DNA from: Fibrobacter sp. UWB4
GTDB lineage: Bacteria; Fibrobacterota; Fibrobacteria; Fibrobacterales; Fibrobacteraceae
DNA: 64,000 nucleotides
Direction: 5' to 3'
Assembly: GCF_002210345.1 (NCBI RefSeq)
Contig: NZ_MWQI01000001.1
Location: forward strand, 806,001-870,000
Below the pieces are notes generated by a model. It searched no databases. It was not told the DNA's origin and worked only from the letters and a program-made list of their open reading frames with translations. Shown here in pieces: positions 12,938 through 63,996 of this stretch. The first letter of the stretch is position 1. Every line of letters begins with the position of its first letter. The position numbers were made by a program, and so were the translations under genes.

Positions 12938-13010
<73 letters not shown>

Positions 13011-13156
13011 CTAAGCACTAAACCGCAAGGCTAGGTGCTGCAAATACAAAAGCGTCAGACAAAGCTAAGCGTTTTTGAAAGCGAAAGCGGAATCTAACGA
13101 ACTTTGAAACTGCGGCTTTTGATTTTTGCAAAAAGACATTGCTGAAAGGCGACTAT

Positions 13157-13229
<73 letters not shown>

Positions 13230-13375
13230 CTAAGCACTAAACCGCAAGGCTAGGTGCTGCAAATACAAAAGCGTCAGACAAAGCTAAGCGTTTTTGAAAG
13301 CGAAAGCGGAATCTAACGAACTTTGAAACTGCGGCTTTTGATTTTTGCAAAAAGACATTGCTGAAAGGCGACTAT

Positions 13376-13448
<73 letters not shown>

Positions 13449-13450
13449 CT

Positions 13451-13481
13451 AGACTCCATCTAAAAAGGTGGAGTCTTTTTT
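13451..13481 (+). terminator. Terminator of the tRNA-Lys array
   Basis: AGACTCCA/TGGAGTCT 8-bp stem followed by a T run. The stretch 13482-13632 after it is AT-rich and holds only leader sequence for the next gene. Confidence 0.85.
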
Positions 13482-13632
13482 ATATGTTGTTGTAATTTTT
13501 TTTCACATGATGTGTATGGAAAAAGACTTAGGGGTTGTTTTTATATTAGAAACTGGATTATTTTAATATATTTTTTTTATATTTAACCTCAAGTAAGGGT
13601 GTTTGAATACACTATATAAAAAGGGTTTTTGA

Positions 13633-17036: not shown

Positions 17037-17079
17037 GTCATCCTGAGCGAAGGGCGAAGCCCGAAGTCGAAGGATCCAG
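17037..17079. repeat. TCATCCTGAG...GGATCC palindromic repeat
   Basis: TCATCCTGAGCGAAG, a variable GGGC-GAAGCCC hairpin, then GAAGTCGAAGGATCCAGG. It belongs to the family that recurs at 43556, 51389 and inside the tetrapyrrole genes at 52-58 kb. The flanks carry the low-complexity words GTAGGCAGTAGGAAGT (before) and GTGGTTAGTGATTAGTGG (after), also recurrent. Confidence 0.75.
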
Positions 17080-43555: not shown

Positions 43556-43586
43556 CCTGGATCCTTCGGCGTTGCCTCAGGATGAC
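43556..43586. repeat. TCATCCTGAG...GGATCC repeat, inverted copy
   Basis: CCTGGATCCTTCGGCGTTGCCTCAGGATGAC is the reverse complement of the repeat family seen at 17037 and at 51-58 kb, lying just after the terminator. Confidence 0.7.
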
Positions 43587-51333: not shown

Positions 51334-51434
51334 CGGCAGTAGACAGTAGGAAGTAGGCAGAATAATTCGGAGTTAGGAATTGTTTATGTGTCATCCTGAG
51401 CGTAGAGCCGAAGGCTCGAAGTCGAAGGATCCAG
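51334..51434. repeat. GTAGGAAGTAGGCAG run and TCATCCTGAG...GGATCC repeat
   Basis: GGCAGTAGACAGTAGGAAGT (51334-51353) is followed at 51389-51434 by GTGTCATCCTGAGCGTAG, a GAGCCGAAGGCTC hairpin and GTCGAAGGATCCAG. This copy lies just upstream of the ahbA-ahbB start, outside the gene, although the frame is open through it. Confidence 0.75.
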
Positions 51435-51442
51435 TTATTTTA

Positions 51443-52600
51443 ATGAATGATTTAAATCAAAAGCTTCTCGCGATTATTCAAGACGGCTTTCCGTTGGTGG
51501 AACGCCCGTATTTGCGTTTGGCGGAAATGTTAAATGTCTCGGAACAAGAAGTTTTTGATGCCGTAGAAGGTTTGCGTTCGTCTGGCTTAATTCGTCGCAT
51601 CGGTGGCGTTTACGATTCCAAGAAACTTGGCTTTATTTCGAGACTTTGTGCAGGGAAAGTACTGACTTCGGAAAATGATTTTTCGGCAGAACATCATGCG
51701 CAAACACCGATGGAAAAGTTTGCTGCCGTCGTGAATGACGAACCTGCAATTACGCACAATTACATCCGTAGTCACGAATATAATGTTTGGTTTACGGTCA
51801 TTGCCGAAAACGAATCCGCAATCCAGTCCGTTGTGGACCGCGTTTGTGCAGAAACTGATTTGCATGATGTTCACGTTCTCACCGCCTCCAAGAAGTATAA
51901 AATCAATACGGTGATGTCATTAGACGAGAGACGTGGTTCGGCAGGCTCACCAACCTTGACGAAAGACGAAAGAGGCGAGTGTGCTCCGGCTTTGCGTCAT
52001 TCTGACAACCAAGTCCCGCGTCATTCTGACAACAGTACCATACGTCATTCTGAGCGCAGCGAAGAATCCAGTAAATTCTTGGGAAAACTCACTGACTCAG
52101 ACAAATCCCGTATCCACTTTGCTTGCGACGACATCCCGCATACGCTCACTCCGTTCAAGGACTGGGGTGTTTCTTGCGATGAACTTCGCGAAGACATTGC
52201 TGCTAAACGTATGCGCCGCTTTGGGGCGATCCTCCGTCATCAAGATGCGGGATTCCCCTGCAATGCGATGGTGTGCTTTAGGTTAGACGAGAGACGAACA
52301 ACGAGCGACGAATGTGAATTGAATGAAATGCTTGCGGAATCTCGTCATTCTGAGGACCGAAGGGCCGAAGAATCCAGTAAAATTAAATCTCTTGCGAAAA
52401 AGCATTTTGTTTCGCACTGTTACGAGCGCCCGTCTTTTAAAAGCTTTCCTTACAATTTGTATGCAATGATGCATGCGCAGACGCCCGAAGAATTGGACGG
52501 TTTCATCAAGGAATCCGTGGCTTTGCTTGATAACCCGGAATACGTCGTTCTCCATTCCCTCAAGGAACTCAAGAAAACGAGCTTTAGATTTTTTGCGTAG
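51443..52600 (+). CDS. Fused sirohaem decarboxylase AhbA-AhbB with repeat insertions
   Basis: A 385-residue protein made of two Lrp/AsnC-like halves. The first (about 1-160) has LRLAEMLNVSEQEVFDAVEGL, RRIGGVYDSKKLGF and ITHNYIRSHEYNVWF. The second (about 215-385) has IPHTLTPFKDWGVS, RRFGAILRHQDAGF and HCYERPSFKSFPYNLYAM. In most organisms AhbA and AhbB are separate subunits. They decarboxylate sirohaem at C12 and C18. Between the halves, residues about 160-210 are repeat-derived (RHSDN..RHSERSEESSKF), and a second insertion (RHSEDRRAEESSK) lies inside the second half. The start at 51443 (MNDLNQKLLAIIQDGFPL) is chosen because the preceding residues are repeat sequence. Confidence 0.85.
   Translation: MNDLNQKLLAIIQDGFPLVERPYLRLAEMLNVSEQEVFDAVEGLRSSGLIRRIGGVYDSKKLGFISRLCAGKVLTSENDFSAEHHAQTPMEKFAAVVNDEPAITHNYIRSHEYNVWFTVIAENESAIQSVVDRVCAETDLHDVHVLTASKKYKINTVMSLDERRGSAGSPTLTKDERGECAPALRHSDNQVPRHSDNSTIRHSERSEESSKFLGKLTDSDKSRIHFACDDIPHTLTPFKDWGVSCDELREDIAAKRMRRFGAILRHQDAGFPCNAMVCFRLDERRTTSDECELNEMLAESRHSEDRRAEESSKIKSLAKKHFVSHCYERPSFKSFPYNLYAMMHAQTPEELDGFIKESVALLDNPEYVVLHSLKELKKTSFRFFA
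51920..52070. repeat. Repeat cluster inside ahbA-ahbB (linker)
   Basis: TTAGACGAGAGACG word (also at 52282-52295), then three GCGTCATTCTGA-type units, the last one complete: GTCATTCTGAGCGCAGCG followed by AAGAATCCAG. All lie in frame and encode Ser/Arg/Glu/Asp-rich peptide. Confidence 0.75.
52344..52377. repeat. In-frame GTCATTCTGAG...AATCCAG repeat inside the second half of ahbA-ahbB
   Basis: GTCATTCTGAGGACC-gaag-GGCCGAAGAATCCAG, encoding RHSEDRRAEESSK. It is preceded by a TTAGACGAGAGACG word at 52282. Confidence 0.75.
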
Positions 52601-52624
52601 TCCAATCTTTTCTATCTTTGGACT

Positions 52625-53908
52625 ATGCGCAAAATTTACATGGCAGGCATGAGCCACAAGGTGGCTGAAATCGCGATTCGCGAAAAGTTTTATATCCCGA
52701 TGGATGTAAAGACTGAGGCGTTGACGCATTCTCCGTTTGATGAACTTTTGATTTTGGCAACGTGTAACCGCACGGAAGTCTATGTGGCGAGCGACCGCGG
52801 AATTACGGATGGTGAACTCGTTCGTTATGTGTGTGGACTTGCCCGTCAAGACTACGATGATTTTGCGAAGTTCTTTTATTTTAAGTCGGGTGACGATGTT
52901 GCACACCATGTGATGAATGTGTGTGCCGGTCTTGATTCTGTCGCCATGGGTGAAGATCAAATTTTGCACCAGATTGGTCGTGCGTACGAGACGGCGCACC
53001 AGCTGAATGCAACGGGCAATACGCTGAACAAGCTTTTCCAGAGCGCCATTCACACGACAAAGCGCATTAAGACCGAGACGAACTTGAGCAAGCTCAGTTG
53101 CAATATTCCGTTCTTGGCGATGAAGCAAGTGCAGAAGACTTTTGACGATCTTGAAAATCGTACCGTGTACATCGTGGGGCTTGGCGAAATGGGTTCGCTG
53201 ATGCTCAAGTATGTACAAGAGAATACGACCAAGATTTTTGCAAGTAGTAAGACTTTTGCGAATGCCGAAAAATTTGCGGATGTTCTCACGCCTGTGAAAT
53301 TCGAAGATCGCTACGATGTGCTTGGAAAGTGCGATGTCGTGATTCTCTGTAGCGCTTGCCAGGAACCGATTGTCACGAAAGATGAATTTGTTAAGGCTCT
53401 TCAGGTCGCGGAATCTGCTGAAACAGTTCATTCAACGCGCTTGATTATTGATCTCGGTAGCCCGCGCAATGCTGAAGCTTCTATTGGCGAACTTCCTGGC
53501 GTTGAATACGTTTGTGTTGATGACCTCGAAAAAATTGTTTCTGAGAATCGTCGTTTGCGAATGATTGAACTTGATGCCGCACAGAAAATCTTGAAAGAAG
53601 GTCTTGACGAATTTTTGCATTGGAACCGCATGGATGAGGTATCCAAGCAAATTCATTTGCATGCCGAGAAAATGCTCACGACGGCAAATGAAGAATCTGA
53701 AAAGTTGTTGCGTTCCATGCCGGAACTTTCAGAAGATGACCGCCACCGCATCCAGATGATGTACGAACGCTTTGCGAAGAAAATGGCAAATGACTTTTTG
53801 TATAAAGTCAAGGCCGAAAATTCTCCCGAAGATGTGCAAGTGTTCCTGAAGTGCTTAGATTCGAAATCTAGTCACGCCGTACATGATGCGGAATCTCCTA
53901 GAAATTAG
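52625..53908 (+). CDS. hemA: Glutamyl-tRNA reductase
   Basis: A 427-residue enzyme that reduces glutamyl-tRNA to glutamate-1-semialdehyde, the first committed step to tetrapyrroles. It shows AGMSHKVAEIAIREKF, the catalytic Cys47 in LLILATCNRTEVY, GEDQILHQIGRAYE, an NADPH-binding segment VYIVGLGEMGSLM and the helical dimerisation domain at the end. Length is normal. It lies 24 bases after the ahbA-ahbB fusion and 12 bases before hemC. HemL, the next enzyme, is encoded at the far end of the cluster. Confidence 0.94.
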   Translation: MRKIYMAGMSHKVAEIAIREKFYIPMDVKTEALTHSPFDELLILATCNRTEVYVASDRGITDGELVRYVCGLARQDYDDFAKFFYFKSGDDVAHHVMNVCAGLDSVAMGEDQILHQIGRAYETAHQLNATGNTLNKLFQSAIHTTKRIKTETNLSKLSCNIPFLAMKQVQKTFDDLENRTVYIVGLGEMGSLMLKYVQENTTKIFASSKTFANAEKFADVLTPVKFEDRYDVLGKCDVVILCSACQEPIVTKDEFVKALQVAESAETVHSTRLIIDLGSPRNAEASIGELPGVEYVCVDDLEKIVSENRRLRMIELDAAQKILKEGLDEFLHWNRMDEVSKQIHLHAEKMLTTANEESEKLLRSMPELSEDDRHRIQMMYERFAKKMANDFLYKVKAENSPEDVQVFLKCLDSKSSHAVHDAESPRN

Positions 53909-53920
53909 AGGAGGCTTGCT

Positions 53921-54937
53921 GTGAGTGACTTGAAATTACGTATCGCAACGCGCAAGAGTGCATTAGCTTTGGCGCAAACCACGATGGCGGCAGATGCTAT
54001 TGTCGCTGCGAATGCTGCGAACGCAGAAACGCTGACATATGAACTTGTCTCCATGACAACCGAAGGCGACCGCCGTTTGGACAAGTCGCTGGCAAGCTTT
54101 GGCGGCAAGGGTGTGTTCATCAAGGAACTCGAAATTGCGCTCCTCGAAGGTCGTGCGGATATTGCGATTCACAGCTTGAAGGATATGCCAGCCGAAGTGC
54201 TGCCGCAGTTCAAGCTTGCAGCAGTCCTCAAACGCGAAGACCCGCGAGATGCTTTCCTTTCACGTGGTGGTGCTGCTGGGGTCCGCTTTATGGATTTGCC
54301 GGCTGGCGCTCGCGTCGGTACGGGAAGTATTCGTCGTGTAGTACAGCTCAAAGCGCTCCGCCCGGATTTGGAATATGTGCCGATTCGCGGAAACATCCAG
54401 ACTCGCATTGGAAAGCTTGCAGAACTTGATGGCGTTGTGTTGGCGGCTGCGGGTCTTAAGCGCATGGGCCTTGCTGACCAAGTAACGGAATATTTTAGCA
54501 CGGAACAAATGCTCCCTGCTAGCGGTCAGGGAATCCTTGCGATTGAAACGTTGAATGATGAAACTGCTCAAGAAACGCGCAACTCTCGTCGTACGGACAT
54601 TGTGCAAATTCTCGCTCGTGCAAATGATGTTGCGACATTCTGCATTGCCTCTGCTGAGATGTCGTATTTAAAGGCTCTCAATGCAGGGTGCCAATTCCCG
54701 GTGGCTAGCTTCGCTGAATTTATTTCTGATGATAGTGCTGAAGATCGCGGCACTTGTGGCGCACTCGAAGAGAATGCGCGGACCTTGAAAATCCGCGGCA
54801 TCTACTGGGACGAAAAGTCTAGCCGTCTGCTCCGTGCAGAAAATTCGGGTGCAATTGATTTGAACTCTGCGGACTCTGTCCAACAAGCCAAGAATTTGGG
54901 CGTTGAACTCGCTTGTGCAATTCAAAAACAATTGTAA
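53921..54937 (+). CDS. hemC: Hydroxymethylbilane synthase
   Basis: A 338-residue enzyme that joins four porphobilinogens into hydroxymethylbilane. Motifs: LRIATRKSALALAQ, FIKELEIALLEGRADIAIHSLKDMP, RVGTGSIRRVVQL, RGNIQTRIGKL, and the dipyrromethane cofactor Cys257 in LNAGCQFPVAS. GTG start with GAGGAGG site close upstream. It is followed by a REP-like hairpin and by a convergent deaminase gene. Confidence 0.94.
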   Translation: MSDLKLRIATRKSALALAQTTMAADAIVAANAANAETLTYELVSMTTEGDRRLDKSLASFGGKGVFIKELEIALLEGRADIAIHSLKDMPAEVLPQFKLAAVLKREDPRDAFLSRGGAAGVRFMDLPAGARVGTGSIRRVVQLKALRPDLEYVPIRGNIQTRIGKLAELDGVVLAAAGLKRMGLADQVTEYFSTEQMLPASGQGILAIETLNDETAQETRNSRRTDIVQILARANDVATFCIASAEMSYLKALNAGCQFPVASFAEFISDDSAEDRGTCGALEENARTLKIRGIYWDEKSSRLLRAENSGAIDLNSADSVQQAKNLGVELACAIQKQL

Positions 54938-54945
54938 CTTGCTTT

Positions 54946-54974
54946 GTCATTCCCGACTCCGTTCGGGAATCGCC
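54946..54974. repeat. Short GTCATTCCCGA...TCGGGAATC palindromic repeat
   Basis: GTCATTCCCGACTCC-gt-TCGGGAATCGCC between hemC and the deaminase terminator. It is related to the GTCATCCCCGC..GGGGATC unit inside cobA-hemD. Confidence 0.6.
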
Positions 54975-54989
54975 ATCTTGTATCGCAAA

Positions 54990-55022
54990 AAAAATATCCC
55001 GCGCATTTAGGATGTGCGGGAT
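54990..55022 (-). terminator. Terminator of the dCMP deaminase gene
   Basis: An 11-bp stem ATCCCGCGCAT/ATGTGCGGGAT with one G-U pair. On the minus strand it runs into an eight-T tract; on the plus strand only into AATTTTG. Confidence 0.75.
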
Positions 55023-55085
55023 TAATTTTGTATAGTCAAACCTTTTCGTTATTGCGAGTCGCGAAAAGACGTTGCAATCTACATG

Positions 55086-55643
55086 TTACTTCTTTTCAGG
55101 CTTTGACACAACAGGCTTGATCCGTTTGCCGCAAAGCGTCACGATAATTCCTGCCTGTGCGAACATGTAGTAAGCCGTGTCGCGGCTGTTGTTCAACGTG
55201 GACTTCGGATCGTAATCGTCCTTGGTCACGAACACTTCGGCAACGCCCGAAAGGCTGATGTCCAAAGAGCAGCGTTCGCACGGGAAACCAATCACGTAAA
55301 GCTTGGAACCCGGAGGAACCTTACCGCGGGCATAGTGGAGCGCGTTGATTTCGGCGTGGACCATGAACGGATACTTGTTCGCTTCGAATTCATGGTGGCT
55401 CAAAAGCTCGCCTGAGTCGGCGTCTAGCAAGTCGTAAGCGAGAAGTTGCTTTTCGCGCGTGTACGGAACGGTGTCGTCGTCAAATCCGGCGGGAGCGCCG
55501 TTGTATCCCGTGCTGATAACGCGCCCGTCGGCGCTCACAAGAACGGCACCCATTTGGGTATTTTGGTCTTTGGAAAGGCGTGCCTGGGCACACATCATCT
55601 GCGTATAGACTTCGTCGCGGAGCTTTGATCTAGAACTATTCAT
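55086..55643 (-). CDS. Deoxycytidylate (dCMP) deaminase
   Basis: A 185-residue zinc deaminase. MCAQARLSKDQNTQMGAVLVS, FMVHAEINAL (His ligand and catalytic Glu) and FPCERCSLDI (two Cys ligands) make the site; NGAPAGFDDD matches dCMP deaminase (ComEB-like) over cytidine or guanine deaminases. It converts dCMP to dUMP for thymidylate synthesis. The ATG at 55643 is chosen over a TTG 18 bases upstream. It is on the minus strand, dividing the tetrapyrrole cluster. Confidence 0.86.
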   Translation of the reverse strand: MNSSRSKLRDEVYTQMMCAQARLSKDQNTQMGAVLVSADGRVISTGYNGAPAGFDDDTVPYTREKQLLAYDLLDADSGELLSHHEFEANKYPFMVHAEINALHYARGKVPPGSKLYVIGFPCERCSLDISLSGVAEVFVTKDDYDPKSTLNNSRDTAYYMFAQAGIIVTLCGKRIKPVVSKPEKK

Positions 55644-55697
55644 GCTAAAAAATATAGGCAAAATTTTAATGGCGAAGTTTTTCTAAATTTGGTTTCG

Positions 55698-57437
55698 ATG
55701 GAAAATTCGAATCATTTTGGCAAAGTTTATTTGATTGGCGCGGGCCCGGGCGATCCTGGACTTTTGACCGTGCGCGGAAAGTCGATTCTTGAAAAAGCCG
55801 ATGTTGTGGTTTACGATCGTTTGGTTTCACCAGGCGTACTCTCGTTATGTAATCCGAAAGCAAAGATGGTGGATGTGGGCAAAATGCCGACGCACCACAA
55901 GGTGAAACAGTCCGAAATCAATAAGCTCTTGGTAAAATTTGCACTTGAAATGCCGGGTGCGACTGTTGCGCGTTTGAAGGGCGGCGACCCGTTTGTGTTC
56001 GGTCGTGGTGGCGAAGAGGCTTTGGAACTTGTCGCTGCAGGCGTCGAATTTGAAGTTGTGCCGGGCGTGACCTCTGCCATTGCTGTGCCTGCCTATGCGG
56101 GCATTCCCGTGAGCCATCGTGGAATTGCAACAAGTTTCCATATCATCACCGGGCATGAAAAAGAAGTAGACAGTAGGAAGTCGGAAGTAGGAAGTGATTC
56201 TGTCATCCTGAGCGAAGTGCGTAGCACGAAGTCGAAGGATCCAAGCCAGAATCTCTCGCTAGACTTTGAAAATCTCGCGAAGTGCCAGGGAACGCTCATC
56301 TTTTTGATGGGCATTGCCAATATGGACTTTATCGCACGTCGTTTAATTGAGTGTGGCAAAGACCCGAAGACTCCGCTTGCATTTATCGAAAAAGGGACGA
56401 CCCCGAACCAGCGTACCGTTATGGCTACGCTTGAAACAGCGGGGGAGACCATTGTCCGTGAAAATGTGACGGCACCCGCAATTACGATTATGGGTGGAGT
56501 AGTTGAACTTGGTAAAACTCTTGCGTGGAAAAAGAATTTGCCGCTTTCGGGCAAGCGTTTGGTTGTAACGCGAGCTGCAAAGCAATCTAGTGGGATTACT
56601 GCTCGACTGACAGCCCTTGGTGCCGAAGTCATCGAAACTCCGATGATCGAAACGCGTTCTTTGGGAAAGCCACAAACCGTGTGTCATCCTGAGCGGAGCA
56701 CCGTAGGTGCGGAGTCGAAGGATCCAGGCTTGCAAGGTTCAGTCGATTTCAAATCTCTCGCGAACTTTGACATTCTCGCTTTCACAAGTACGAATGGTGT
56801 TGAAAGCTTCTTTAAGCAGTTGTTCGCTGCGGGTTATGATGTGCGCGTCCTTGCGGGCAAGAAAATTGCGAGCGTAGGGAAGATTACCGAAAAGAAGTTG
56901 CTTGAATTCGGCATCCGCTGTGATTACGTTCCCGAAGACCACACTGGCGAAGGTCTTGGCTTGTTGTTGCGTGACGTGGTTGACAAGTGCGAGCATGTCA
57001 TCCTGAGCGAAGAGCGTAGCTCGGAGTCGAAGGATCTAGTAGAGTCTCGTATTCTTCTTTTGCAAGGCAATCTCGCAGACGATACTTTGCTCAAACTCTT
57101 GCCGAAAGCAACTCGTTGGACGGTTTACGAAACGCTTCCGGTCGCTGAACTCCCGGATTGGAAACGTGAAGCCATCGCCAGTGCCGATGCCATCGTCTTC
57201 GCTAGCTCCAGCGCCGTCGAGAATTTTAGCAGTGTTATCCCTGCGGCCTCATCTGTCATCCCCGCGAAGGCGGGGATCTCCTTTGACCTTTGCCCCCATA
57301 CGTCTTTCTGCATAGGTCGCATGACTGAAGCTTCCGCGAAAAAGCATGGCTTTGAAACGATCACCTCAGACGAAACGACGATGGATTCCCTTGTGAAAAA
57401 AATTGTGGAATATTACACGATGGGGGAGAATGCTTAA
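55698..57437 (+). CDS. Fused uroporphyrinogen-III C-methyltransferase and uroporphyrinogen-III synthase (CobA-HemD)
   Basis: A 579-residue two-domain protein. Residues about 10-270 are the SAM-dependent methyltransferase (VYLIGAGPGDPGLLTVRG, VVYDRLVS, RLKGGDPFVFGRGGEE, GIPVSHRG, FLMGIANM, PAITIMGGVVEL), which makes precorrin-2. Residues about 280-579 are HemD (RLVVTRAAKQSSGIT, AFTSTNGVESFF, LLLQGNLADDTLLKLLP, VFASSSAVENF). Four repeat insertions add peptides at loop positions: VILSEVRSTKSKDPS, CHPERSTVGAESKDPG, VILSEERSSESKDL and VIPAKAGIS. The ATG at 55698 is preferred over a TTG 9 bases upstream. It overlaps the next gene by 1 base. Confidence 0.9.
   Translation: MENSNHFGKVYLIGAGPGDPGLLTVRGKSILEKADVVVYDRLVSPGVLSLCNPKAKMVDVGKMPTHHKVKQSEINKLLVKFALEMPGATVARLKGGDPFVFGRGGEEALELVAAGVEFEVVPGVTSAIAVPAYAGIPVSHRGIATSFHIITGHEKEVDSRKSEVGSDSVILSEVRSTKSKDPSQNLSLDFENLAKCQGTLIFLMGIANMDFIARRLIECGKDPKTPLAFIEKGTTPNQRTVMATLETAGETIVRENVTAPAITIMGGVVELGKTLAWKKNLPLSGKRLVVTRAAKQSSGITARLTALGAEVIETPMIETRSLGKPQTVCHPERSTVGAESKDPGLQGSVDFKSLANFDILAFTSTNGVESFFKQLFAAGYDVRVLAGKKIASVGKITEKKLLEFGIRCDYVPEDHTGEGLGLLLRDVVDKCEHVILSEERSSESKDLVESRILLLQGNLADDTLLKLLPKATRWTVYETLPVAELPDWKREAIASADAIVFASSSAVENFSSVIPAASSVIPAKAGISFDLCPHTSFCIGRMTEASAKKHGFETITSDETTMDSLVKKIVEYYTMGENA
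56164..56244. repeat. In-frame repeat in the CobA domain
   Basis: GTAGACAGTAGGAAGTCGGA (from 56164) then GTCATCCTGAGCGAAG-tgcgtagcac-GAAGTCGAAGGATCC (56202-56242). It falls between HEKE and the LAKCQGTLIFLMG strand, a loop position. Confidence 0.82.
56683..56728. repeat. In-frame repeat in the HemD domain, copy 1
   Basis: GTCATCCTGAGCGGAG-caccgtaggtg-CGGAGTCGAAGGATCCAGG, read in a different frame from the CobA copy (CHPERSTVGAESKDPG). Confidence 0.82.
56997..57039. repeat. In-frame repeat in the HemD domain, copy 2
   Basis: GTCATCCTGAGCGAAG-agcgtagct-CGGAGTCGAAGGATCTAG, encoding VILSEERSSESKDL between two HemD lobes. Confidence 0.82.
57254..57280. repeat. In-frame GTCATCCCCGC..GGGGATC palindrome in HemD
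   Basis: GTCATCCCCGCGAAGGCGGGGATCTC, encoding VIPAKAGIS near the C-terminal lobe of HemD. Confidence 0.78.
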
Positions 57438-58408
57438 TGAAAGCCATTCTTATTATCGCTCATCATTGCATTTTGCCAGGTGCGTACAAAGGATTCGAAG
57501 AAATCCTCGACCGCTTGCATCATGATTTGCCCGGTACGCGCGTGGCGAGCACGAGTTTGTTGGATTTGGAAAACGACCTCCGTACGCTTTTGCGCGAAGA
57601 TGTGGAATCGGTGACGCTTCTGCCGTATTTGCTGTTGAACGGTCAGCATTCCAAAAACGATGTGCCGCGTGTTGTTGCAAAATTGCAGGCTGAATTCCCG
57701 CAAATTCCGATTACGCTTCTGCCTTGCCTTGGCGATTGGAAAGAATTTTCGAGTATGGTGGTTGCTGGAGTCCGCTCCGCTCAGAACGCGTGTACTTGTG
57801 CCCCTTTGTCATCCTGGAGCCACGAATGTGGCGATAGGATCCACTCAGAGCGAGCCCATAGCTCAAACCTCTTTTCCATCGAGTTGAATCTTGAAGGGCG
57901 TAACGTTCTCGTTGTGGGCGGTGGCCGCATTGCACTCCGCAAGGTGAAAACGTTAATCCCGACAGGTGCTCACATCACAGTAGTCGCTCCGCAATTCGAC
58001 CCCGAATTCAATGCGCTTTGTTGTCATTCTGAACGAAGTGAAGAATCCAGTTGTTTCTCGAATTCAGCATCTGTAGAACCCTCTTCTATCACACTAAAAC
58101 AGCGCCCGTACGAACCGCTTGACTTACGTTGCGTTTTCATGGTATTCATTTGTACCGATCAGCCCGCTGTCAATGCGCAAGTTTCTAACGATGCCCGCGC
58201 TCGTCGCATTCTCGTGAATAACGCTTGCGATTACCTCGACGGCGATTTCATTGTGCCTGCCCGCATGGACTTTGGCGAAAACATTGCCGTGACCGTCTCC
58301 ACGCAGGGCCGCGCTCCCTCGCTCGCGAAAAAGCTCAAGCAGAAAATCCAGACCGAATGGGCCGATGACCTTGAGCAAATTGAAAAAGATTTTAATTGTT
58401 CTTTTTAA
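57437..58408 (+). CDS. Fused CbiX-like chelatase and precorrin-2 dehydrogenase (sirohaem synthase)
   Basis: A 323-residue fusion. Residues about 1-115 resemble short CbiX/SirB chelatases (ILIIAHHCILPGA, VTLLPYLLLNGQHSKNDVP, PITLLPCLGDW), which insert metal into sirohydrochlorin. Residues about 150-323 are the Met8p/CysG-N dehydrogenase (FSIELNLEGRNVLVVGGGRI, ALRKVKTLIPTGAHITVVAP, FIVPARMDFGENIAVTVSTQ, GRAPSLAKKLKQKI). The product order precorrin-2, sirohydrochlorin, sirohaem feeds AhbA-AhbB. Repeats are inserted between the two domains (57807-57847) and in a dehydrogenase loop (58022-58050, CHSERSEESSCF). The start overlaps the cobA-hemD stop by 1 base, so coupling is likely. Confidence 0.85.
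   Translation: MKAILIIAHHCILPGAYKGFEEILDRLHHDLPGTRVASTSLLDLENDLRTLLREDVESVTLLPYLLLNGQHSKNDVPRVVAKLQAEFPQIPITLLPCLGDWKEFSSMVVAGVRSAQNACTCAPLSSWSHECGDRIHSERAHSSNLFSIELNLEGRNVLVVGGGRIALRKVKTLIPTGAHITVVAPQFDPEFNALCCHSERSEESSCFSNSASVEPSSITLKQRPYEPLDLRCVFMVFICTDQPAVNAQVSNDARARRILVNNACDYLDGDFIVPARMDFGENIAVTVSTQGRAPSLAKKLKQKIQTEWADDLEQIEKDFNCSF
57807..57847. repeat. Repeat in the CbiX-dehydrogenase linker
   Basis: GTCATCCTGGAGCCACGAATGTGGCGATAGGATCCACTCAG, a diverged member of the TCATCCTG...GGATCC family, read in frame. Confidence 0.7.
58022..58050. repeat. Repeat in the dehydrogenase domain
   Basis: TGTCATTCTGAACGAAGTGAAGAATCCAG in frame, encoding CHSERSEESS, in a surface loop position before LKQRPYEPLDLR. 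Confidence 0.78.
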
Positions 58409-58477
58409 TGTTTTTTGGTTTTTTGACAGAAAAATGACAAAAACAATTTGTATTTTGGTATAAAAAAAGAGGATGAA

Positions 58478-59617
58478 ATGAAATCAATAGAATTGTTTGC
58501 TGGTGGTGGTGGTCTTGCTTTGGCGTCATCTTTATCAGGTTTTAGACATTCTTTTCTTGTTGAGTGGGATAAAGATTCTGCGAAGACTCTTGCGCATAAT
58601 TTTTCTGGTCTCAATTTACGTTCATCTTCATCTATATTCAATGGTGATATTCAGTCTATAAATTTTTCTGATTATTCAGGGAAAATAGATTTATTGTCTG
58701 GAGGACCTCCATGCCAACCCTTTTCAATTGGAGGAAAGTCCAAAGCTTATAATGACAGACGTGATATGTTTCCTGAAGCAGCCCGAGCCTTATCAGAAAT
58801 CAAGCCCAAAGCTTTTGTTTTTGAGAATGTTCGAGGATTATTGCGAAAAAATTTTTCAAAGTATTTTAATTATATACTTCTGCAATTAACTTATCCTGAA
58901 ATAAGTAAACGAGAAAATCAAACGTGGGAAGATCATCTTGCTATTTTAGAGAAACATCAAACAAGTCGTTCTTTTTATAATGGGTTGAAGTATAATGTTG
59001 TGTTTAGATTAGTTAATGCTGCGGATTATGGTATCCCTCAAAAGCGAGAACGTGTTTTTATCGTTGGTTTTCGAAGTGATATTAAGGGTAATTGGAGCTT
59101 CCCCGAAACAACGCATTCTAAAGAATCTCTTGAGTACTCCAAGTATGTGACAGGAGATTATTGGAAAAGACATTCGTTGCCTTTTCAGAGAAAAAGTGAT
59201 TGCACATTAATGATTCCTTTTGAAAATGGAAAGAAACCTTGGGTCACTGTTCGAGATGCCCTTTCAGATTTGTTAGATAACAAGGTGAATGGAAAAATAA
59301 TTCCAAATCATGTTATTCAACCAGGTGCTAAGCAATATGTGGGGCATACCGGAAGTTCTTTGGATGAACCTTCTAAAACGATAAAAGCCGGTGCTCATGG
59401 TGTTCCTGGTGGTGAGAATATGATAATTCTTGATGACGGGTCTGTCCGTTACTATACAGTTCGTGAAGCTGCTAGAATACAGACCTTTCCAGATACTTAT
59501 GAATTTCCATGCTCATGGACAGAAAGCATGCGACAAATAGGTAATGCAGTGCCTGTTCAGTTAGGTAAAATTGTCATAGACTCTGTTGCAAGGATGTTAA
59601 AAAATGCAAGAATCTAA
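58478..59617 (+). CDS. DNA (cytosine-5) methyltransferase of a type II restriction-modification system
   Basis: A 379-residue C5 methyltransferase. Motif I SIELFAGGGGLALA, catalytic Cys in GGPPCQPFSIGG, motif VI FVFENVRGLL, PQKRERVFIVGF (motif VIII), and IGNAVPVQLGKIV at the end. The ATG at 58478 has AGAGGATGA just upstream. It protects the site cut by the nuclease whose gene overlaps its 3' end by 14 bases. The pair is AT-rich compared with the haem genes on both sides, indicating recent transfer into the cluster. Confidence 0.92.
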   Translation: MKSIELFAGGGGLALASSLSGFRHSFLVEWDKDSAKTLAHNFSGLNLRSSSSIFNGDIQSINFSDYSGKIDLLSGGPPCQPFSIGGKSKAYNDRRDMFPEAARALSEIKPKAFVFENVRGLLRKNFSKYFNYILLQLTYPEISKRENQTWEDHLAILEKHQTSRSFYNGLKYNVVFRLVNAADYGIPQKRERVFIVGFRSDIKGNWSFPETTHSKESLEYSKYVTGDYWKRHSLPFQRKSDCTLMIPFENGKKPWVTVRDALSDLLDNKVNGKIIPNHVIQPGAKQYVGHTGSSLDEPSKTIKAGAHGVPGGENMIILDDGSVRYYTVREAARIQTFPDTYEFPCSWTESMRQIGNAVPVQLGKIVIDSVARMLKNARI

Positions 59618-60209
59618 AATATTTAATCCGCTAGATAAGGAAAATTTAGGGAAAAGCGTATCTTCAGCCATTCTTTCGCAACCTGTTTACTCGTTGTCTG
59701 ATTTGAAAGAATTTGTTGGTGCTGGTGTATATGCTATTTACTATAAAGGATCTTTCCCTTTGTACAAAAAACTTTCAAAGAAAAATCAATCTGAATATCT
59801 TTGGCCTATATATGCTGGAAAGGCTGTTCCTCAAGGTGCTCGAAAGGGCAATTTAGTTTTAGATTCTTTGTCGGGAAAAGATTTATTCAAAAGATTAAAT
59901 GAACATCGCAAATCTATTGAAGCTTCTGAAAATTTAGAAATAAAAGATTTTTATTGTAGGTATTTGATTGTTGATGATATTTGGATACCTCTTGGGGAAT
60001 CTGTTTTAATACAGCAGACTAAGCCTCTTTGGAATAATGTTATTGATGGATTTGGAAATCATGATCCTGGTAGTGGTCGCGGGAAACAATTGCGTTCTCC
60101 ATGGGATATGCTTCATCCCGGAAGAGAATGGGCAAAAAAGCTGCCCGTTGGTAAATCAGTGTCCGAAATTGAACAGTCTGTTAACGATTTTTTTAATGCC
60201 AATTTCTAA
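59604..60209 (+). CDS. Eco29kI-like type II restriction endonuclease
   Basis: A 201-residue protein resembling Eco29kI, a GIY-YIG restriction enzyme that cuts CCGCGG. Visible blocks are GVYAIYYKGSFPLYKK, YLWPIYAGKAVPQGARKG, LFKRLNEHRKSIEAS (catalytic Arg region), DDIWIPLGESVLIQQTKPLWN and NHDPGSGRGKQLRSPWDML. The family resemblance is strong by memory; the CCGCGG target is inherited knowledge, not shown by the sequence. It overlaps the methyltransferase by 14 bases. A short AT-rich gap (60210-60263) then leads to hemB. Confidence 0.85.
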   Translation: MQESKIFNPLDKENLGKSVSSAILSQPVYSLSDLKEFVGAGVYAIYYKGSFPLYKKLSKKNQSEYLWPIYAGKAVPQGARKGNLVLDSLSGKDLFKRLNEHRKSIEASENLEIKDFYCRYLIVDDIWIPLGESVLIQQTKPLWNNVIDGFGNHDPGSGRGKQLRSPWDMLHPGREWAKKLPVGKSVSEIEQSVNDFFNANF

Positions 60210-60263: not shown

Positions 60264-61229
60264 ATGATTATTCGTCCTCGCCGTTTACGTAGAAATGAAG
60301 TTATCCGCAACATGGTTGCAGAAACTGCTGTGAATCCCGATGCCCTCGTTTACCCGATGTTCGTGGTTGAAGGAACGGGAATCAAAGAAGAAATTCCGTC
60401 CATGCCGAACCAGTTCCGGTTCTCGATTGATGAAATCTTGAAGGAACTCGAAAGCTGTGTTGCGCTTGGCATCAAGTCTATTTTGCTGTTCGGTATTCCG
60501 AATCACAAGGACGAGATGGCGACTTCGGCATACGATAACGATGGCATTGTGCAACGAGCCGTGCGCGCTATCAAGGCAAAGTTCCCGAATTTGTATGTGA
60601 TTACGGACGTGTGCCTTTGCGAATACATGAGCCATGGTCATTGCGGCATCATTAAGGATGGCGATGTGGATAACGATCCGACGCTTGAACTTTTGGCAAA
60701 GACTGCGGTCTCTCAGGTGGCAGCCGGTGCAGACATGGTGGCTCCGAGTGACATGATGGACGGTCACATCACGGCTCTCCGCGAAGCTCTTGACAATGCT
60801 GGCTTTACGAATACGCCGATTATGGGTTACAGTGCAAAGTTCGCAAGCGCTTATTACGGCCCGTTCCGCGATGCGGCTGATTCCGCTCCGCATTTTGGCA
60901 ACCGCAAGAGTTACCAGATGGATGTGCGCAATGGTCGCGAAGCGCTCCATGAAGTAGAACTCGATCTTGAAGAAGGTGCAGATATCGTGATGGTAAAGCC
61001 TGGCCTCGCATTCCTCGATGTGCTTCGCCAGACGGCTGAAATCAGTAATGTGCCAGTTGCTGTGTATAACGTAAGTGGTGAATATTCGATGGTCAAGGCC
61101 GCTGCAAAAATGGGCTGGATTGATGAAAAATCGATTATCCGTGAAAACATGATTGCGTTCAAGCGAGCCGGTGCCGATATCATCATCACGTACCACGCTA
61201 AAGAAATCTTGGAAAATAAAATTCTGTAA
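60264..61229 (+). CDS. hemB: Porphobilinogen synthase
   Basis: A 321-residue enzyme condensing two 5-aminolaevulinates to porphobilinogen. DVCLCEYMSHGHCG is the zinc-type Cys site, PSDMMDGHITALR, IMGYSAKFASAYYGPFRDAADS (Schiff-base Lys region), DIVMVKPGLAFLDVL (second Lys) and VAVYNVSGEYSMVKAA. Length is normal. The stretch behind its stop (61230-61303) carries a CTCCGGCGGGCATGAC repeat remnant before mscS. Confidence 0.94.
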   Translation: MIIRPRRLRRNEVIRNMVAETAVNPDALVYPMFVVEGTGIKEEIPSMPNQFRFSIDEILKELESCVALGIKSILLFGIPNHKDEMATSAYDNDGIVQRAVRAIKAKFPNLYVITDVCLCEYMSHGHCGIIKDGDVDNDPTLELLAKTAVSQVAAGADMVAPSDMMDGHITALREALDNAGFTNTPIMGYSAKFASAYYGPFRDAADSAPHFGNRKSYQMDVRNGREALHEVELDLEEGADIVMVKPGLAFLDVLRQTAEISNVPVAVYNVSGEYSMVKAAAKMGWIDEKSIIRENMIAFKRAGADIIITYHAKEILENKIL

Positions 61230-63887: not shown

Positions 63888-63996
63888 TGTCATCCTGAGG
63901 CGAAGCCGAAGACTACTCAGAAGGCGAGTGTTGCAAAAATGAGTGAACTCATTTTTATAACCGAGCCGAGGAGTAGGGGCTTTGCCCCATCCAGTT
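63888..63996. repeat. Compound TCATCCTGAG...CATCCAG repeat at the window end
   Basis: TGTCATCCTGAGGCGAAGCC, then an inserted TGAGTGAACTCA palindrome, then GGGGCTTTGCCCCATCCAG. It is a longer, nested member of the same repeat family, outside any gene. 63840-63887 holds only a CCCGTCTG..GACGGGACG hairpin. Confidence 0.6.

Follow-up and report, generated by a model that had tools for sequence, protein, structure and literature searches.

How do palindromic DNA segments come to be read as part of conserved enzymes, and why do several of them lie in neighboring genes of one pathway? The question is raised by a 64,000-nucleotide stretch (the window, G000:C1:806001-870000) of the 3.58-Mb genome of Fibrobacter sp. 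UWB4, which includes between 51.4 and 58.4 kb a tetrapyrrole cluster consisting of ahbAB, hemA, hemC, a deaminase-like gene on the opposite strand, cobA-hemD, and cbiX-sirC; the names of genes without a Pfam match are our reading. Eight full palindromes, all on the + strand, are inserted in frame in ahbAB (two), cobA-hemD (four), and cbiX-sirC (two), and the frames remain open, as had been proposed in an earlier reading of the DNA (the original prediction). The best reading is that they represent a new family of CGTC-tagged mobile hairpins resembling repetitive extragenic palindromes (REPs), and we estimate a probability of about 0.7 that a short non-autonomous mobile repeat multiplied in Fibrobacter, gave rise to these segments, and was retained in tolerant loops. 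The features of the cluster, by position in the window, are as follows.

51391..51432, + strand: palindrome located 10 bases 5' of the ahbAB ATG (51443)
51443..52600, + strand: ahbA-ahbB fusion, siroheme decarboxylase type (Pfam PF22451 and two PF17805 matches)
51997..52029, + strand: two bare element heads, TCATTCTGA at 51997 and 52021, read as RHSDN
52045..52069, + strand: palindrome in ahbAB linker 1, peptide RHSERSEES
52345..52375, + strand: palindrome in ahbAB linker 2, peptide RHSEDRRAEES
52625..53908, + strand: hemA (named by homology); no copy here, variable loop with copies in other species
53921..54937, + strand: hemC (the name is a reading); copies present in other species though not here
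54947..54971, + strand: intergenic dRS3-like palindrome, TCATTCCCG..CGGGAATC
55698..57437, + strand: cobA-hemD fusion, uroporphyrinogen III methyltransferase and synthase (Pfam PF00590, TP_methylase, and PF02602, HEM4; model m4b876c59a815)
56163..56200, + strand: low-complexity agtagacagtagg-type repeat in CobA-HemD linker 1
56203..56242, + strand: palindrome in CobA linker 1, peptide VILSEVRSTKSKDP
56684..56725, + strand: palindrome in HemD linker 2, peptide CHPERSTVGAESKDP
56998..57037, + strand: palindrome in HemD linker 3, peptide VILSEERSSESKDL; element absent at this site in loci L034, L289, L290, and L291
57256..57278, + strand: TCATCCCCGC..GGGGATC palindrome in HemD linker 4, peptide VIPAKAGI; 8-bp stem and 4-base loop
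57437..58408, + strand: cbiX-sirC fusion (Pfam PF01903, CbiX, and PF13241, NAD_binding_7)
57809..57842, + strand: TCATCCTGG..ATAGGATC palindrome in the cbiX-sirC linker
58024..58048, + strand: palindrome in a sirC loop, peptide CHSERSEES

The stretch 51993-52070 within ahbAB includes one full copy and, ahead of it, the two bare heads. Two of the three sense frames are used by the copies, giving peptides of the CHPERS.. and VILSE.. types, which bears out the proposal that they are read in more than one frame.

The repeat family and its hairpin

The main repeat has the form YGTCAT-YCT-GA-[stem]-GA-AGR-ATCC-AGTNAA. In the genome-wide count suggested with the original prediction, the pattern TCATYCTGA-N6..36-GAAGRATCC gave 159 matches in the window's genome, a few of them overlapping at one place, and the reversed pattern gave none, for which reason the matches cannot be ascribed to chance. 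The repeat is spread throughout the genus: a slightly looser pattern was found in 60 of 61 genomes (0 to 246 matches each, with no match of the reversed control in any of the 61), and a stricter one, consisting of tag and tail in addition, in 61 of 67. The stricter pattern was also present in 3 of 27 genomes of other genera of the family, with 1 or 2 copies each, and in none of 56 genomes elsewhere in the phylum, the reversed control being negative in all 150. The location with respect to genes was surveyed for 96 distinct copies among those of the 159 matches that were listed, and most of the 96 lie outside genes (77 by a loose coding score, 81 by a strict one). Elsewhere in this genome, 14 further copies were found inside genes, namely those for Dus, an HsdS type protein, LysE, a PP-loop protein, LigA, an aminotransferase, topoisomerase (two copies), a helicase (two copies), a NUDIX protein, and FeoB (two copies), and in one unscanned open reading frame (ORF). 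Pairs of copies in close opposite orientation are visible among the matches listed, and a GTCCCGGA..TCCGGGATAAACTC-type palindrome recurs inside the repeat in linker 3 of L126, at G060:C1:80313, and at G160:C1:68263.

The borders of the unit were defined on the 96 scored copies. A G is found at position -1 in 100% of them and a C or T at -2 in 95%, the subsequent TC being fixed by the search pattern; on the 3' side the CC, also fixed by the pattern, is followed by an A in 97% of the copies, mostly as AGT. Conservation fades within about 11 bases on the 3' side, and nothing is conserved further upstream. The copies have a stem that starts with complementary AT, the AT..AT itself being part of the search pattern. 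The unit consists of a core of 25-50 bases plus tag and tail, and the hairpin comprises roughly 40-56 bases.

The stem covaries. The variable position of the outer stem (Y-R) pairs in 95 of the 96 copies, as C-G in 70 and as T-A in 25, and in the 29-base class, represented by 14 distinct sequences, 23 double-change cells were counted versus 7.0 +/- 2.0 in shuffles, every slid version of the pairing being far worse; the pattern had prescribed some of the outer letters but none of the inner four pairs. In the main family a 5-bp outer stem is followed by GA facing GA and by a variable inner stem, which ends in a triloop in 59 of 85 distinct parsed copies. The tip of this triloop has the sequence GNA in 44 of the 59, and the closing pair is C-G in 34. 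Among other hairpins in the examined DNA with a stem of at least 6 pairs and a triloop, GNA was found in 9 of 127 (Fisher test, 6e-21), a comparison that is not like for like since family members were read on their own strand and with inner stems of at least 2 pairs while the other hairpins have no set strand. Counting GNA or TNC, the strand being arbitrary, gave 17 of the 127, and the 13 such hairpins that lie near family members include 3 with GNA and 3 with TNC. Loops of the GNA or GNNA type on G-C stems have been described as extraordinarily stable, nuclease-resistant DNA mini-hairpins, such as d(GCGAAGC) (PMC4686876). As far as they are described there, they share with the repeat the apical GNA loop, usually closed by C-G, and some copies hold exactly GCGAAGC; on the other hand those mini-hairpins are short synthetic DNA, whereas here the structure is the predicted tip of a genomic repeat. 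The GNA tip may be a hint that a DNA strand folds during movement, although calculated DNA folding energies, which single out two of nine window copies, count against this.

The closest known relatives are the REPs of the CGTC superfamily, which according to their description occur in five phyla, lie inside genes in some species, include dRS3 of Neisseria and RPE-4 and RPE-6 of R. conorii, form predominantly head-to-head dimers, and have no dedicated transposase (Di Nocera 2013, PMC3733652). The CGTC or TGTC tag, the CCA tail, and the intragenic location of some copies are common to both, the stem starting with AT being prescribed by the search pattern here, and the copy at 57256 has the stem (8 bp) and the loop (4 bases) described for CGTC-1. 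The main Fibrobacter family differs from CGTC families 1-4, described with 8-9 bp stems and 4-5 base loops, in its 5-bp stem, the GA/GA, the inner stem, the predominance of triloops, and a tail in which conservation extends over about 11 bases (PMC3733652). Because these stem and loop lengths fall outside the four described families, we file the main repeat as a related new family set apart from them by their description. The word Fibrobacter is absent from the main text of that survey, and none of the open-licence PMC papers listed in the literature search had a title or abstract opening that describes such repeats for Fibrobacter.

The original prediction had compared the segments to the Rickettsia palindromic elements (RPEs). 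RPEs are described as Rickettsia-specific elements of 105-146 bp, inserted in 19 Rickettsia reading frames, and a guanylate kinase decorated with one of them was active with an altered substrate affinity (PMC2229807). The likeness holds for the behavior, since in both cases a palindrome occurs in frame in conserved protein genes and also in intergenic DNA (Ogata 2000, 2002, via PMC2229807), and the view that the Fibrobacter palindromes are translated as part of protein loops is supported; the likeness does not extend to the element itself, which is of roughly 40-56 bases, occurs in other taxa, has filled the same loops repeatedly across the genus, and has the tag and tail of CGTC-tagged REPs. 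The Fibrobacter repeats behave like RPEs and are not RPEs.

Filled linkers in CobA-HemD and other proteins

The variability of the insertion sites was followed in an alignment of CobA-HemD from 41 loci of the genus and its order with 62 other homologues. The 41 rows include L052 (from G026, of another family of the order, and truncated by the contig end), which was left out of the count of linker DNAs and of the class count; the number of species is below 41, because L110 and L035 duplicate one stretch and some of the remaining loci are closely related. A single length over the 41 loci was found for 12 of 14 control segments between anchors. The four linkers range from 6 to 95, 13 to 65, 10 to 73, and 0 to 50 amino acids (medians 19, 31, 20, and 24), the minima of 6 and 0 belonging to L052 and becoming 7 and 10 when it is omitted. 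In the 62 homologues from outside Fibrobacter the medians are shorter (8, 18, 11, and 15), and single linkers reach 24, 56, 68, and 52 amino acids. Equally long unrelated loops lacking the repeat, which the original prediction had regarded as evidence against it, are thus in part found: many long loops inside Fibrobacter are without the main repeat and are often filled by other genome repeats.

The same linkers carry different inserts in different loci. Their contents include the main repeat, relatives with other stems (CCCCG, TTGCGAG, TTCTGG, and TGCCGG), and further sequence, some of which consists of other repeats of these genomes. At least one tagged palindrome is present in 12 of 30, 19 of 32, 5 of 32, and 8 of 30 distinct linker DNAs for linkers 1 to 4, respectively. 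The matches, 45 sense and 2 antisense, define 18 classes by linker, family, strand, and frame; as controls, 33 distinct genes reversed gave no match and the 62 outside genes gave 2. In linker 2 of L039, L040, and L115 the insertion is nested, with a TCATTCTGG..ATAGAATC element inside a TCATCCCCGC..GGGGATC element.

Other sequences are found in the same linkers. A second kind of repeat, TTAGACGAGAGACG.. (peptide LDERR..KDER), is located at 51920-51980 and 52283-52313 in the window and fills CobA-HemD linkers 1 and 3 in many relatives. Many relatives have, at both linker 3 and linker 4, the sequence CAAAGCACCGAAGGTGCGACCTC (peptide QSTEGATS), a further small hairpin tipped by GAA, and CobA linker 1 of L121, from a Fibrobacter of horse faeces, is filled by the tandem repeat NSQF.IQNSKLNDSGKG.

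The proposal that the copies fall at loops is supported by the model of the window's CobA-HemD, which has a mean predicted local distance difference test (pLDDT) score of 87.5 with 418 of 579 residues at 90 or above. The score dips at the four inserts (residues about 169-182, 329-343, 434-447, and 520-527), which are mostly coil, the third running into a predicted helix at 443-449; one further dip, at residues 61-70, is found without an insert. A fold search gave the expected structures, of the CysG/SUMT and HemD kinds: siroheme synthase CysG for the CobA part (6pr4_A; Z 31.3, root-mean-square deviation 1.4, 237 aligned) and uroporphyrinogen III synthase for the HemD part (3re1_B; Z 18.3, root-mean-square deviation 2.8, 242 aligned). 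Six comparisons over 472 codons of the core gave ratios of nonsynonymous to synonymous substitution rates (dN/dS) of 0.045-0.092; dS exceeded 1 in four of them, and the two with dS away from saturation gave 0.071 and 0.092. Judged by these codon ratios, the CobA-HemD cores are constrained.

Within the genus five neighboring enzymes of the pathway are affected, ahbAB, hemA, hemC, cobA-hemD, and cbiX-sirC. The variable loop of hemA, readable in 28 of 30 loci, measures 7-54 amino acids and includes the repeat in 5 of the 28. Where hemA lies clearly distant from cobA-hemD (four loci), a comparison that bears on targeting by position, long loops of other sequence are found in L245, L248, and L249 and a short one in L234. 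The hemA loops of L119, L245, L248, and L249 have in common the peptide DVVFExxCSKVAEHPG, which suggests a further mobile or exchanged segment. The hemB Pfam match spans 942-948 bases in 29 genus loci with no inserts, and the radical SAM gene has no copy in 7 loci. Outside the pathway, a loop of LigA at residue 120, just before the Pfam adenylation match, varies between 2 and 55 amino acids (30 loci, L250-L279) and carries a tagged palindrome in 8 of the 30. LigA has a second variable run near the C-terminus (reference position 715, 10-62 amino acids), and two tagged matches in its ORFs (L272 and L276) are located outside the residue-120 loop. Targeting exclusive to the pathway was rejected, because copies occur in LigA and in nine further gene families and are absent from 29 hemB loci.

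The excess of copies in CobA-HemD was measured in two sets, 25 genus genomes including that of the window, of which 3 have no CobA-HemD match and 22 were used, and 31 genomes with such a match, of which G064 has no locus and 30 were used. The first set includes 17 strict copies inside CobA-HemD, in 8 of the 22 genomes, against 0.57 expected by even spread (about 30-fold), or 14 against 0.48 when the window's genome is omitted; the second includes 8 copies in 6 of the 30 genomes against 0.77 expected (about 10-fold), with some tagged palindrome in CobA-HemD in 20 of the 30. Shared ancestry inflates these figures; on the other hand, since the majority of copies are not in genes, even spread is a lenient null for a gene. 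Of the 82 tagged palindromes in 419 kb around the cluster (19 loci), 60 were classed as intragenic, 31 of them in cobA-hemD, 8 in ahbAB, 6 in cbiX-sirC, 6 in hemC, and 4 in hemA, the remaining 5 being chance matches of the loose pattern. The clustering in tetrapyrrole genes claimed in the original prediction is therefore real, with CobA-HemD above even spread, and not confined to the pathway, LigA having a loop of the same sort; as a statement about three enzymes it proved both too narrow, hemA and hemC being hit in other species, and too wide, hemB having no insert in its 29 loci. Hot loops are a genus-wide feature, densest, among the genes tested, in the tetrapyrrole cluster.

Mobility, recombination, and retention

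Sites with and without an element were found in related genomes. In hemC, L114 (filled) and L041 (empty) have flanks 95% and 98% identical and a net difference of 45 bases, which the simplest alignment accounts for by the element, a portion of its tail, and three bases. At the site of the 56998 copy, the window has VVDKCEHVILSEERSSESKDLVESRI and the loci L289 and L291 have VVDDESRI.

Each copy would be a potential DNA hairpin with the YGTC tag, the ATYCT/AGRAT stem, GA/GA, an inner stem, usually a GNA triloop, and a CCAGTNAA-type tail. The consensus has two of three frames open on each strand, encoding polar peptides, and for this reason in-frame insertions can persist. An insertion of net length divisible by three would remain in a gene when it hits a tolerant surface linker, and a few linkers of the tetrapyrrole genes and of LigA would tolerate almost anything and be filled time after time, with members of other repeat families among the inserts; the enzyme core would stay under strong selection. 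We infer that the copies transpose, that they move as single-stranded DNA by means of a mover other than a Y1-type enzyme, and that their retention reflects tolerance and not benefit.

Several results weigh against this explanation. Neither a target-site duplication nor a transposition event was seen in the filled and empty pairs, which are mostly diverged; in some pairs the whole linker is replaced, and insertion is not always separable from recombination. No mobiliser was found among the Y1 and IS110 families searched. Nearest-neighbor DNA folding of nine window copies gave for seven of them values no better than those of shuffles (|z| about 1 or less), the outliers being 57256 at -3.8 and 57809 at -2.4, and simple thermodynamic stability is an explanation unsupported for those seven. 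Genomes G053, G060, and G047, among the richest of the second set, have no strict copy in CobA-HemD. Tolerance alone leaves unexplained the excess of the cluster over its surroundings (55 of the 60 intragenic calls in the 419 kb), and random insertion followed by tolerance does not obviously predict that the strand is specific to the locus, with 25 of 25 strict copies sense in CobA-HemD and, in the opposite orientation, 8 of 8 antisense in the LigA loop.

Recombination is a second probable route by which linker content moves, as judged from the sequence on both sides of such loops: L041 and L110 are 95-100% identical on either side of a replaced hemA loop. A serious alternative, which we nevertheless consider the less probable one, is that species mainly swap linker content through homologous recombination in the conserved flanks, so that new insertions would be rare and the hot loops would be old, shuffled polymorphisms. 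Besides the hemA loop, this would account for L033 and L043 sharing the linker 1 insert and differing at linkers 2 and 3, for L034 and L043 sharing linker 2, and for L110 and L114 being 93-100% identical over thirteen 60-base windows up to a gapped stretch fitting linker 1 and then mostly 83-95%. However, many origins follow from the 18 classes and from the presence of several different hairpin sequences at a single linker, a nested copy exists, and the main repeat is abundant between genes. That the inserts are instead selected, for example as flexible tethers in an enzyme complex passing on unstable intermediates, is unlikely; five neighboring enzymes of one pathway are affected and copies exceed the even-spread expectation over 52 genomes, but content, length, and presence vary freely between species (L042 and L046 have short linkers without repeats), LigA has the same kind of loop, and the hemB and radical SAM genes were spared in all 29 and 7 loci, respectively.

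Mobilization by a REP-associated tyrosine transposase (RAYT) would be suggested by what the repeat has in common with GTAG REPs, that is, the hairpin with a tag, the high copy number, and the intragenic copies, as REPs are described (PMC3733652). It is very improbable, since the tag is YGTC and not GTAG and no link to a Y1 transposase was found: the window's genome has two Y1 (PF01797) matches, in what we read as IS200-type elements, with no repeat copy within 1.5 kb of either, and in 61 genus genomes the number of copies shows no correlation with that of Y1 matches (rho 0.002). PF01797 is absent from 41 of the 61, and five of the six genomes with the highest copy number, several of them incomplete, are without Y1. 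Least probable of all is that the inserts are sequencing or assembly artefacts or belong to decaying pseudogenes; many of the relatives are metagenome-assembled genomes, but the repeats are also present in G000, G048, and G066, which consist of 20-30 contigs or fewer at 99-100% completeness, and both the open frames and the dN/dS of the core are at odds with decay.

Candidates for the mobiliser were also considered. IS110, which came into question because dRS3 has been linked to Piv-type recombinases, was set aside as there is no PF01548 match in the window's genome. With respect to miniature inverted-repeat transposable elements, no parent element was found among the Y1 and IS110 families, and the pairs are too diverged for calling a target duplication. 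One 28-base form of the repeat had no exact match in the viral contigs of the collection, as would be looked for under phage carriage.

The mobile repeat could, more tentatively, belong to a new class of small mobile hairpins built on a GNA-loop tip and moved as single-stranded DNA by a non-Y1 system into orientation-specific landing loops, the genus then being a natural and ongoing experiment in making linkers from mobile DNA; we regard this extension as rather doubtful. Two things seem new here, the GNA tip and the way in which the same loops have been filled over and over throughout the genus. With many different insertions in the same loops next to constrained cores, the rules by which mobile DNA becomes protein are made countable and testable. 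CGTC REPs are described as having no known mobiliser (PMC3733652), and the range of 0 to 246 matches per genome makes a search for one by association feasible within the genus.

Other features of the window

The following features lie outside the stretch listed above.

17038..17077, + strand: copy intergenic by coding score
43559..43585, - strand: copy at an ORF edge, near the ORF start
60270..61214, + strand: hemB (span of the Pfam match), no insert
63890..63910, + strand: incomplete copy, head and inner stem without the GGATCC tail

Four related copies had been placed between genes. This stands for the one at 17038, whereas that at 43559 is near an ORF start, that at 63890 is without its tail, and the frame across the copy at 51391-51432 stays open from an upstream TTG at 51380. 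A stretch similar to the agtagacagtagg-type low-complexity repeat of linker 1 is found in an intergenic location near 51335.

Between cbiX-sirC and hemB, at 58448-60209, a cytosine methyltransferase-like ORF is followed by a 201-amino-acid ORF, and on our reading the two could perhaps form a small restriction-modification island inside the tetrapyrrole cluster. Finally, a unit of about 219 bases is apparently repeated head to tail at 12938-13500, with marks at 13004, 13223, and 13442 on the + strand and at 12938, 13157, and 13376 on the - strand.

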